36,654 nt of DNA from Deltaproteobacteria bacterium. Its GTDB lineage: Bacteria > Desulfobacterota > Syntrophobacteria > Syntrophobacterales > Syntrophobacteraceae. The position numbers and the translations under genes were made by a program. The notes under the pieces were generated by a model. It saw only the letters and a program-made list of their open reading frames with translations. It did no database searches and was not told the DNA's origin. Positions 33,266 through 36,332 of this stretch are shown here, piece after piece. The stretch covers positions 1-36,654 of the forward strand of contig JAJYTC010000026.1 in assembly GCA_021793275.1 (NCBI GenBank), written 5' to 3'. Positions within the stretch are counted from its first letter, which is position 1, and each line of letters opens with the position of its first letter.

Positions 33266-33976
33266 TTATTGCGGGCTCCAGAAGGGGCCCGCCTTCCCCA
33301 GCCTTTTTAACGATAAGAACAATTCATCACCGTATTCTTTTACTCGCGCGAGGTAGTCCGGATCCAGCCGTCTTTTCATCAGAGGGCCGCTGAATACGAG
33401 TGCCCAATCAGCCAGCGCCATGATCGACTCGGCTGAGACGGGATCATAGACAGGCCAGTTTTTAACGTGTTCTTCCGACCGGAAGAGATTCATGCGGGCT
33501 CAAGCCTTCCCCCAGGAAACTTCTCCCGTCAAAGCCTTGGCTAACGGGATATTCATGTGCCCTACGGTCGTGGTCGGGTTGATTTCGAGGATGTCCTCAT
33601 CACGCATCCGGACATGGATGGGTTGCCCACAATCCAGGCATTGAGCCTCGATTCGGATTTCACTGCCGGGGAAGAGCCAGCGCACGGCCAGCACCTCGAT
33701 ACCTCATTGTCCGTACCATTTTTGTTTTCCGTCGACAGTCACCCGATAATGGGTAGGCACATTAGAAAACGGCGCCCAGGACTCCACGTAATCTGTGTCT
33801 TTGACAAACCAGCAGGCAAGGGAAGATTCGGCTGCCTTATGCTGTACCTGCCTTGCTTCTTCCGGGGGAAGGCCGAGAATTGCCGAAAGTTCGGTATAGT
33901 GCGGCGCTCGCCCGGTCTTCACAAAATGCTCGACAACAGCGGTGTAAGCTCGTTGTACCAGATCGGAATCATGCAT
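33266..33976 (-). CDS. MerB-like (organomercurial lyase family) protein with two candidate selenocysteines
   Basis: One frame of 236 codons, broken only by two TGA codons at 33704-33706 (codon 91) and 33500-33502 (codon 159). Read through as Sec, it gives a full MerB-type protein: an N-terminal winged-helix-like domain (LVQRAYTAVVEHFVKTGRAPHYTELSAILGL, residues 6-36), PTHYRVTVDGKQKWYGQ-U91-GIEVLAVRWLFPG, AQC113LDC116GQPI, then GKA-U159-ARMNLFRSEEHVKNW and SGPLMKRRLDPDYLARVKEYG. In E. coli plasmid MerB the residues at these places are Cys96, Asp99 (here Glu94), Cys117 and Cys159; the Trp 15 residues after Cys159 is also kept. MerB cleaves carbon-mercury bonds with those two cysteines. Start: ATG with GGAGG seven bases upstream. 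Both TGAs have SECIS-like hairpins. The real substrate is unknown; no merA or merR is nearby. Confidence 0.8.
33471..33486 (-). promoter_or_regulatory. Strong bacterial SECIS-like hairpin for the second TGA (codon 159)
   Basis: UCUUCC (+14 to +19 after the UGA) pairs perfectly with GGAAGA (+24 to +29), closing a four-base loop GGUC at +20 to +23. The E. coli fdhF SECIS presents the same GGUC loop to SelB at a similar distance. The hairpin lies inside coding sequence, as bacterial SECIS elements do. Confidence 0.8.
33671..33697 (-). promoter_or_regulatory. Candidate bacterial SECIS for the first TGA (codon 91)
   Basis: In the mRNA, positions +7 to +33 after the UGA can fold: GAGG (+7 to +10) with CUUC (+30 to +33), and GGCC (+15 to +18) with GGCU (+26 to +29), leaving a 7-base apical loop GUGCGCU from +19. 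The loop begins with G-U at a distance usual for bacterial SECIS elements. The lower stem is offset by a 4-base bulge, so it is weaker than the second element. Confidence 0.5.
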
Positions 33977-34053
33977 AGCGTTGCCTCCAATGCCGGTAGG
34001 ATAGTGTTGGATTCAATGCAGGAGACTTCGATCAGCTTCAGTTCGCTGCGGGA

Positions 34054-34364: not shown

Positions 34365-36332
34365 ATGAGATACGCAGAGACAGGGTATAATCTGGAAATC
34401 GATTTGGCTACGGGGCACATCGAACGGGTAGAAACCGACCCGAAATTGATGGAATTGCATCTCGGAGGTCTTGGCACGGACGTTAAATTAATGTGGGACA
34501 GGGTTCCACCCGAGACTCATGCATTCGACCCCGAGAACCTGCTGATATTCAGCAGCGGTCTTTTATGCGGCACCCCCGCTTATAGCGCCAACAGGACTAC
34601 CGTTACCACTATTTCTCCCCAGACGGGCTTGATGGCATACCCGATGATGGGAGGGTTCTGGTCGCCGGAATTGAAGTACGCCGGCTATGACAAGGTGGTC
34701 ATCCGCAACAAGTCTCCCAAGCTTGTCTACATCTGGATCCACAATGACAAAGTGGAGATACGCGACGCTTCCCATTTGAAAGGCAAAGGCGCTGTTGAAA
34801 CCCAGGAACTCATAAGAGCGGAACTCAATCAGCCCAAAGCCCAGGTTTCCGCCATCGGCCTGGCCGGTGAGAACCGTGTCTTCTTTGCATCCATCGAACA
34901 GTCAAGGGCCAGCGCCAGCAGGCTTGGGTCCGGTGGGGTCATGGGAGATAAGGGGCTAAAAGCGATAGCCGTTCGCGGAACTAAGGATGTCCAGCTTGCC
35001 CATGGCGCCGAATTTATGTCTCATTGGAAGCAGTTGGATGCATTTGTAAGACACCGGAATGCAAATCCCCTGCCCAAAAAACTCATCATGGATATTCACA
35101 CCGGTGTCGGCTCGCCTCAGGCCATGAAGCATGTTAATGAGAAATGGCATACCGAGGGGTTCTCCTGGGGAAATGCCCGGTACCGAAGAAAGGACTTTTG
35201 GACCGAGGAGATCGAGAGCAGTTGGACAAAGACCCAGGCAAAAGCCATAAAGCGGTTCATAAGCTGCTTTAATTGTCCGCAGCAGTGCGGCGCATTGATT
35301 TCCTACGAGGATGTCCCTCCTTACATGGCCAAATGCTATTCCAAGCTCTCCTATCTCATCGGGGCCGGTGTTGACGACCAGGCCTTTACGTGGAGAATCC
35401 TTGAGCGCGCTTTTGAATATGGCCTGGACTCCTTTTCGACCCCTCAGGTATTGGCCTTCGCGGTAGAACTCCATGAGGCCGGCATTTTGACCGACAAGGA
35501 TTTTGAAGGTTGTCCGACCGATAAGGAAGGAAGGTTCTTCTGGCTGCTGGATCGAATTGCGCGACGGGAAGGAATCGGGGATATCCTGGCCGAAGGCGCC
35601 TATTGGGCTGCCAGAAAAATTGGCAATGGCGCGGAGAAATTCGACCACAACACCATAAAAAAACATGAACAGATGAATGTGAAGCTGGGCATGCTCGATC
35701 CTCTTTACTTCCTGATGTTTTCAACAAACGAGAAGGTGAGCATTACGCAAATCGAAGGCAATTGGCCCCAGTCGCCGTTTGCCTCCAGAGAGGACCGGGA
35801 AGAATGGGTCAAAGACTGGATTCAGCTTCCGGATGAAAAGTTCAAACAATACTTCCTTGACTGGGAACCGCGCGGAGAAAAAAGCTTTCCATACTATCCC
35901 ACCCCGGAAATCGCCTCGGAAATCGTCGATTGGATGGAGATGCTGCACAATATCGATGACGCTCTTGGTTTGTGCGCCGGCATGGGATCGTTTTGCTTGA
36001 AACCCGCCTATCACATTCACAACTATCCCGGATTTATTTCAGCCGCGACCGGGATGGATCTGGATGAAGACGGATTAAAGAAGATAGTCAACCGCAACCG
36101 GAACCTGCATAGGGCCTTCAATAACAGAAGAGGCATGACCAGGGCGGATGAAAAGCCCCCTGAAGATCATTGGAGGCACAGATTCCCCGAACTCGAAGAA
36201 AAGCTCCTGTCCACCTACTATGAGTTCAAGGGATGGAACCATGACGGCGTGCCCACTCGCAAACGGCTGGAGGAGCTCGATTTAGCTTACGTGGCCGACG
36301 ACCTGGAGAAAAGAGGCGTGCTCAAAGATTAA
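34365..36332 (+). CDS. BamB-like tungsten oxidoreductase (aldehyde:ferredoxin oxidoreductase family)
   Basis: A 655-residue member of the AOR family, close in length and N-terminus (MRYAETGYNLEIDLATG) to BamB, the tungsten-pterin catalytic subunit of class II benzoyl-CoA reductase. The AOR N-domain spans about residues 1-205 (LHLGGLGTDVKLMWDR, TISPQTGLMAYPMMGGFW, SRLGSGGVMGDKGLKAIAVRG). The iron-sulfur ligands begin with CFNCPQQC (Cys301, 304, 308), and a late DDALGLC supplies the likely fourth. Such enzymes bind a W-bis-pterin and one 4Fe-4S cluster and do low-potential two-electron chemistry in anaerobes. No other bam subunit is in the window, so benzoyl-CoA as substrate is unproven; other acyl-CoAs or aldehydes are possible. 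Start: ATG at 34365, with ATG at 34362 as the alternative. Confidence 0.85.
   Translation: MRYAETGYNLEIDLATGHIERVETDPKLMELHLGGLGTDVKLMWDRVPPETHAFDPENLLIFSSGLLCGTPAYSANRTTVTTISPQTGLMAYPMMGGFWSPELKYAGYDKVVIRNKSPKLVYIWIHNDKVEIRDASHLKGKGAVETQELIRAELNQPKAQVSAIGLAGENRVFFASIEQSRASASRLGSGGVMGDKGLKAIAVRGTKDVQLAHGAEFMSHWKQLDAFVRHRNANPLPKKLIMDIHTGVGSPQAMKHVNEKWHTEGFSWGNARYRRKDFWTEEIESSWTKTQAKAIKRFISCFNCPQQCGALISYEDVPPYMAKCYSKLSYLIGAGVDDQAFTWRILERAFEYGLDSFSTPQVLAFAVELHEAGILTDKDFEGCPTDKEGRFFWLLDRIARREGIGDILAEGAYWAARKIGNGAEKFDHNTIKKHEQMNVKLGMLDPLYFLMFSTNEKVSITQIEGNWPQSPFASREDREEWVKDWIQLPDEKFKQYFLDWEPRGEKSFPYYPTPEIASEIVDWMEMLHNIDDALGLCAGMGSFCLKPAYHIHNYPGFISAATGMDLDEDGLKKIVNRNRNLHRAFNNRRGMTRADEKPPEDHWRHRFPELEEKLLSTYYEFKGWNHDGVPTRKRLEELDLAYVADDLEKRGVLKD

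Follow-up and report, generated by a model that had tools for sequence, protein, structure and literature searches.

MerB-type proteins and bacterial SECIS elements

MerB (PF03243; PDB 3f0o, 5c17) carries a catalytic triad of Cys96, Asp99 and Cys159 (PMC4525700, PMC8261052), in which one cysteine binds mercury while the other hands a proton to Asp99, which in turn protonates the leaving carbon (PMC4525700). SaoL (NF040728) is a MerB-like selenoprotein with a single selenocysteine (Sec) in a CU motif (PMC13188914; Haft and Gwadz, 2023, as related in PMC13188914), and this single-Sec protein is the only MerB-type selenoprotein that we found in the 2026 review (PMC13188914). Bacterial SECIS elements are described by the bSECIS model, which specifies an apical loop of 3–9 nt on an upper stem of 4–16 bp, a G at loop position 1 or 2 (usually G[G/U]), 16–37 nt between the UGA and the apical loop, and a minimum free energy of −7.5 kcal/mol or less (PMC13188914). 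In E. coli fdhF, the SECIS is a hairpin with a GGUC tetraloop, located in the coding sequence right after the UGA; its sequence (41 bases from the UGA onwards) was verified in 5368 of 5426 genomes.

A MerB-fold gene with two in-frame TGA codons

The window, i.e. the whole analysed stretch of 36,654 nucleotides, contains on its minus strand a gene of 236 codons (33269–33976), which runs from an ATG start at 33976–33974 to a TAA stop at 33268–33266. Direct reading places a Shine-Dalgarno-like GGAGG (33984–33988, minus strand) seven bases 5′ of the ATG. With TGA read as a residue, the frame 33976–33269 is open, and TGA occurs only at codons 91 (33704–33706) and 159 (33500–33502). Translated with TGA as U, the predicted product is a double-selenocysteine protein of the MerB fold. 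It matches Pfam MerB (PF03243) with an E-value of 9.5e-20 and 71.3 bits (gathering cut-off 27), a search of the PDB with a profile of its family hits MerB2 and MerB, and the best PDB match of its AlphaFold2 model (pLDDT 95.3) is MerB2 (5c17), with a Z-score of 17.2 over 193 residues.

The protein shares with MerB the fold, the two cysteine positions, to which codon 91 (Cys96) and codon 159 (Cys159) align, and an acidic residue three past the first of them. It differs in the predicted Sec for both Cys, in Glu94 for Asp99 (Ser in MerB2), in a longer C-terminus and in the lack of a mer operon. The positions of the MerB triad are hence kept with other residues (Sec91, Glu94, Sec159, the two Sec as predicted), and both catalytic positions and the acidic residue are invariant in the family. 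The NCBIfam MerB models give the protein 32 bits, against a cut-off of 193.

Homologues were gathered by genome searches and a related-locus search. The 103 distinct genes obtained comprise 85 double-TGA genes, 14 in which Cys at site 1 is combined with TGA at site 2 (three of them SaoL-like, one a divergent paralogue from Acidimicrobiia), and four remote MerB relatives with Cys at both. Comparisons at site 2 use the 96 distinct genes with TGA at that site, SaoL excluded. TGA stands at the second site in all 96 of these family members; at the first site it stands in 85 homologues, with Cys in others.

SaoL resembles the window protein in its MerB fold and in Sec at the Cys159 position, and its genus and family also harbour true SaoL genes (L018–L020). 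However, SaoL has one Sec only, with Cys at the first site, whereas the window protein is predicted to have Sec at both; a very long branch separates SaoL from the double-Sec family, and the SAO operon genes (ABC transporter, SaoC, SaoT) are absent beside the window gene. With NF040728 the window protein scores 48 bits, below the equivalog cut-off of 140, and four other family members score 32–37, as compared to 194.6 for a true SaoL (L019). No model among those scanned in NCBIfam (June 2026) covers the double-Sec branch, and no mention of a double-Sec MerB was found in the literature searched, a scope outside which Haft and Gwadz (2023) and Haft and Tolstoy (2025) lie. The predicted double-Sec branch appears to be a new form of MerB-type selenoproteins.

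The hairpin after the second TGA

On the minus strand, the second TGA (33502–33500) is followed by GCCCGCATGAATC and then by TCTTCC (33486–33481), GGTC (33480–33477) and GGAAGA (33476–33471), as direct reading shows. The resulting hairpin UCUUCC-GGUC-GGAAGA (33471–33486) spans +14 to +29 from the UGA, with its loop at +20 to +23, exactly as the sequence-only reading had placed it. It is the minimum-free-energy fold at −7.5 kcal/mol, a value that lies exactly at the limit of the bSECIS model (PMC13188914). Its loop of 4 nt, its stem of 6 bp and the 19 nt between UGA and loop fall within the ranges of that model, and the loop starts with G (GGUC in 91 of 96 family members). Within the same ranges fall the loop (5 nt), stem (6 bp), spacing (17 nt) and energy (−12.6 kcal/mol) of the hairpin after the first TGA.

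A match to the fdhF SECIS had also been claimed. It holds for the GGUC loop and for the distance, the fdhF loop at +19 to +22 being one base nearer the UGA, but not for the rest of the stem: fdhF has a bulge and a longer, interrupted lower stem, where the present hairpin has an uninterrupted stem of 6 bp. As a SECIS, the element is ordinary in kind. None of the 4227 Rfam models reaches its gathering score in the window, and no SECIS match was obtained over 33380–33760 at E-values up to 10; RF00031 also failed to match any control genome, and its silence therefore carries no information for bacteria.

Taken alone, the single-sequence evidence for this hairpin is modest. When the same 15 residues were recoded at random by the codon usage of the gene, 5.4% of the draws (p = 0.054) had a GU-loop hairpin at least as good, as compared to 2.8% at the first TGA. 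At site 2, complementarity comes easily, since the conserved peptide LFRSEE brings Phe TTC codons opposite Glu GAA codons. Nevertheless, none of the 202 other codon positions tested along the gene ranks as high, and over 99 genes the median p of synonymous recoding is 0.004. The fold is no lower than that of dinucleotide shuffles (z −0.06 to −0.24), and these z-scores of about zero, being uninformative, were dropped as support.

Comparison of homologues is more telling. Each of the six pairs from +14/29 to +19/24 is formed in 96 of the 96 distinct site-2 homologues, in most of which the stem extends to 7 bp, as compared to 6 bp here; a TGA-bearing gene without the hairpin, which the sequence-only reading had named as a refutation, did not turn up in the family. 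The loop is GGUC in 91 of these genes, NGUC in two, and GGGA, GGGC and GUGC in one each. Relative to usage elsewhere in the same genes, which serves as background, the synonymous codons of the hairpin are nearly or fully fixed: Leu is CTC in 74/74 (background 0.23), Phe TTC in 96/96 (0.55), Arg CGG in 93/94 (0.27) and Ser TCG in 91/93 (0.20), and Glu is GAA in 87/96 (0.50). From +31, past the hairpin end, codon constraint is back at or near background. A scan of 194 codon columns along the 85 double-TGA genes puts hairpin codons in the first seven places of constraint, namely 95, 96 and 99 at site 1 and 164–167 at site 2.

Compensatory changes in the stem, which the sequence-only reading had named as a check, are seen at two pairs. 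The loop-closing C-G has become G-C at +19/24 in two genes (L016, L024), and the outer U-A has become G-C at +14/29 in L086, L091 and the divergent L044 paralogue. In L086 and L091 this turned MNLFRSEEH into MNCFRSEAH (L to C, E to A), so that the pair was preserved at the expense of two residues. Covariation at +13/+30 (Fisher p 3e-7) is not independent of phylogeny and is not claimed. Neither chance nor constraint on the protein explains pairing in 96 of 96 genes together with 98–100% fixation of four hairpin codons. The hairpin had been offered as support independent of the protein alignment; this does not fully apply to the stem, as the F-R-S-E codons are partly self-complementary, but it does apply to the synonymous-codon fixation and the compensatory changes.

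The hairpin after the first TGA

The first TGA is followed by the hairpin GCUGGC-CGUGC-GCUGGC (33676–33692, minus strand), which spans +12 to +28 with its loop at +18 to +22. In the family form GCUGGC-NGUNN-GCUGGC, each pair is formed in 84–85 of the 85 genes, TCG is used in 60/61 and CTG in 78/85, and six genes show an exchange from G-C to C-G at +12/+28. In genes with Cys at site 1, the six positions are paired in 9–15 of 18, and a GU-loop hairpin is found in 5 of 18 genes, as compared to 85 of 88 otherwise. One gene (L098) has Cys at site 1 and an intact hairpin, which looks like a recent change from Sec to Cys. The best tree requires at least seven Sec/Cys switches at site 1, and four are required on its starred branches alone. 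Such switching beside a constant Sec at site 2 would amount to a natural experiment on the part of selenium in carbon-metal cleavage, and the SECIS pair provides a compact case of two putative recoding signals within one short message.

Selenocysteine machinery

The genome contains tRNA-Sec (tca), SelA (618 bits) and SelD (379 bits). The SelD gene (L142, G000:C115:14356-15276) has one in-frame TGA itself, and SelD is probably a selenoprotein, too. SelB is represented by a C-terminal fragment near a contig start (L140, G000:C90:37-480), presumably due to a gap in the assembly (MAG); the other gene-carrying genomes have a SelB match above cut-off in 12 of 12 cases. Further selB matches on contigs C166, C226 and C235 were rejected as EF-Tu. 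SelA is present in 29/29 double-TGA genomes and in 21/23 others, which discriminates little because SelA is so common in these phyla (base rates 91% and 81%); its co-occurrence was dropped as support.

Alternative explanations

Judged by pairing and codon usage, the hairpin is very probably a bacterial SECIS within the coding sequence of a MerB-fold selenoprotein whose UGAs are read as Sec. The evidence strongly favours SelB-mediated insertion of Sec at both UGAs, which we infer to be highly probable; the earlier proposal of a SelB-type SECIS in support of Sec at the second TGA withstands both of the refuting conditions that it had set. A hairpin without any decoding role might arise as a by-product of the peptide LFRSEE (TTC facing GAA), in line with the 5.4% of synonymous recodings that do equally well, and remote Cys homologues with FFSSEE are weakly complementary at this place, with a GU loop in two of four. 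However, there is no close Cys form at site 2, and these four Cys/Cys relatives of MerB lack both the GGUC loop and the fixed codons. Preference for CGG (93/94) and TCG (91/93) over backgrounds of 27% and 20%, a median synonymous p of 0.004 over 99 genes, and compensatory changes that alter amino acids make a by-product very improbable. The TGAs could also be true stops or errors, of a pseudogene or of a gene for a truncated product of 90 residues, as in-frame stops would suggest and as is the case for broken copies in relatives (L126, L127). Yet the same two TGAs recur in 85 distinct homologues across phyla, the frame stays open to codon 236, the fold is modelled at a pLDDT of 95, and the dN/dS of 0.13 past the second TGA is the same as that of the preceding parts (in comparisons with two close relatives), which leaves this explanation next to no credit. 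Readthrough of TGA alone cannot tell which residue is inserted, and a change of the code or a suppressor inserting Cys or Trp would account for it equally; such decoding appears hardly credible given that the TGAs fall exactly on the two catalytic Cys positions, that site 1 alternates with Cys codons, that tRNA-Sec, SelA and SelD are present, and that a SECIS follows each TGA.

Sec might likewise be inserted into a protein that is not a lyase, such as a Sec-based scavenger of organometals or metals, or a metal-responsive regulator acting via a helix-turn-helix N-terminus. The replacement of MerB Asp99 by Glu may hint at this, as may the N-terminal ~65 residues, which resemble the winged-helix regulators LexA and MntR (Z 5–6); no mer operon, mer genes or MerA-like partner were found beside the selenoprotein gene. 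On the other hand, the N-terminus of MerB itself is folded in this way, the alignment with MerB2 covers 193 residues at Z 17.2, and both catalytic positions as well as the acidic residue are invariant. A role other than that of a lyase therefore appears rather unlikely, although it deserves consideration.

Proposed mechanism and significance

For a lyase made with two Sec residues, the reading that we prefer, the following mechanism may be proposed. SelB with Sec-tRNA(Sec) would bind the GGUC loop, upon which the UGA of codon 159 would be decoded as selenocysteine, and the second SECIS, past codon 91, would bring about Sec insertion there likewise. The product would have Sec at both organomercury-binding and -cleaving positions of MerB (Cys96, Cys159), and Glu94 in place of Asp99. 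Two selenolates would then bind the metal, with Glu94 as proton donor, and the carbon-metal bond (of methylmercury or another soft organometal) would most likely be cleaved by selenolate ligation followed by protonolysis. By analogy to MerB, we consider this lyase role reasonably probable. Selenium binds mercury more strongly than sulfur, and stronger Se–Hg binding would favour capture while making product release harder.

In the 85 distinct double-TGA genes, most of which come from metagenome-assembled Thermodesulfobacteriota/'Deltaproteobacteria', Sec appears to replace both mercury-binding cysteines of MerB. This lineage includes mercury methylators. A standard gene finder would end the protein at residue 90; hence surveys of mercury demethylation based on merB likely miss double-Sec genes. 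We tentatively raise the idea, which may well prove wrong, of a widespread family of double-Sec lyases that serves as demethylase of organometals (methylmercury or other) in anaerobic Desulfobacterota and some Chloroflexota/Actinomycetota, and that has escaped notice because two stop codons make its genes appear disrupted.

Further copies and gene neighbourhood

The same genome carries a second double-TGA copy (L023, G000:C270:5948-6646), which is ~41% identical, has the same fixed CTTCCGGTCGGAAG hairpin and sits in the other main branch of the family. The paralogue from Acidimicrobiia, a second gene at L044 (minus strand), is very divergent; its site 1 is Cys (WWANCGWDAF) and its site 2 TGA (IGFTURTIRC), and its hairpin GUUUCC-GGUC-GGAAGC is kept via changed pairs. 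Broken copies split across frames occur in G413 and G426 (L126, L127), and remnants in G044 and G048 (L017, L021). In the broken copy L126, changes in the site-2 hairpin (TCTTTCGGTCAGAAGA) break a pair.

The window gene is flanked by argS, a SPOR-domain gene and an aldehyde ferredoxin oxidoreductase gene; the latter (34365–36332, plus strand; AFOR_N and AFOR_C) is oriented divergently from the selenoprotein gene. Among 81 loci compared, no neighbour of the gene recurs, which leaves a mercury substrate without backing from gene context, and the large neighbourhood clusters of this comparison appear to be pieces of the MerB-like gene itself, on either strand. At one locus (L024, G040), a small open reading frame lies directly upstream, which by eye resembles carboxymuconolactone decarboxylase/AhpD and ends in ESCCA.
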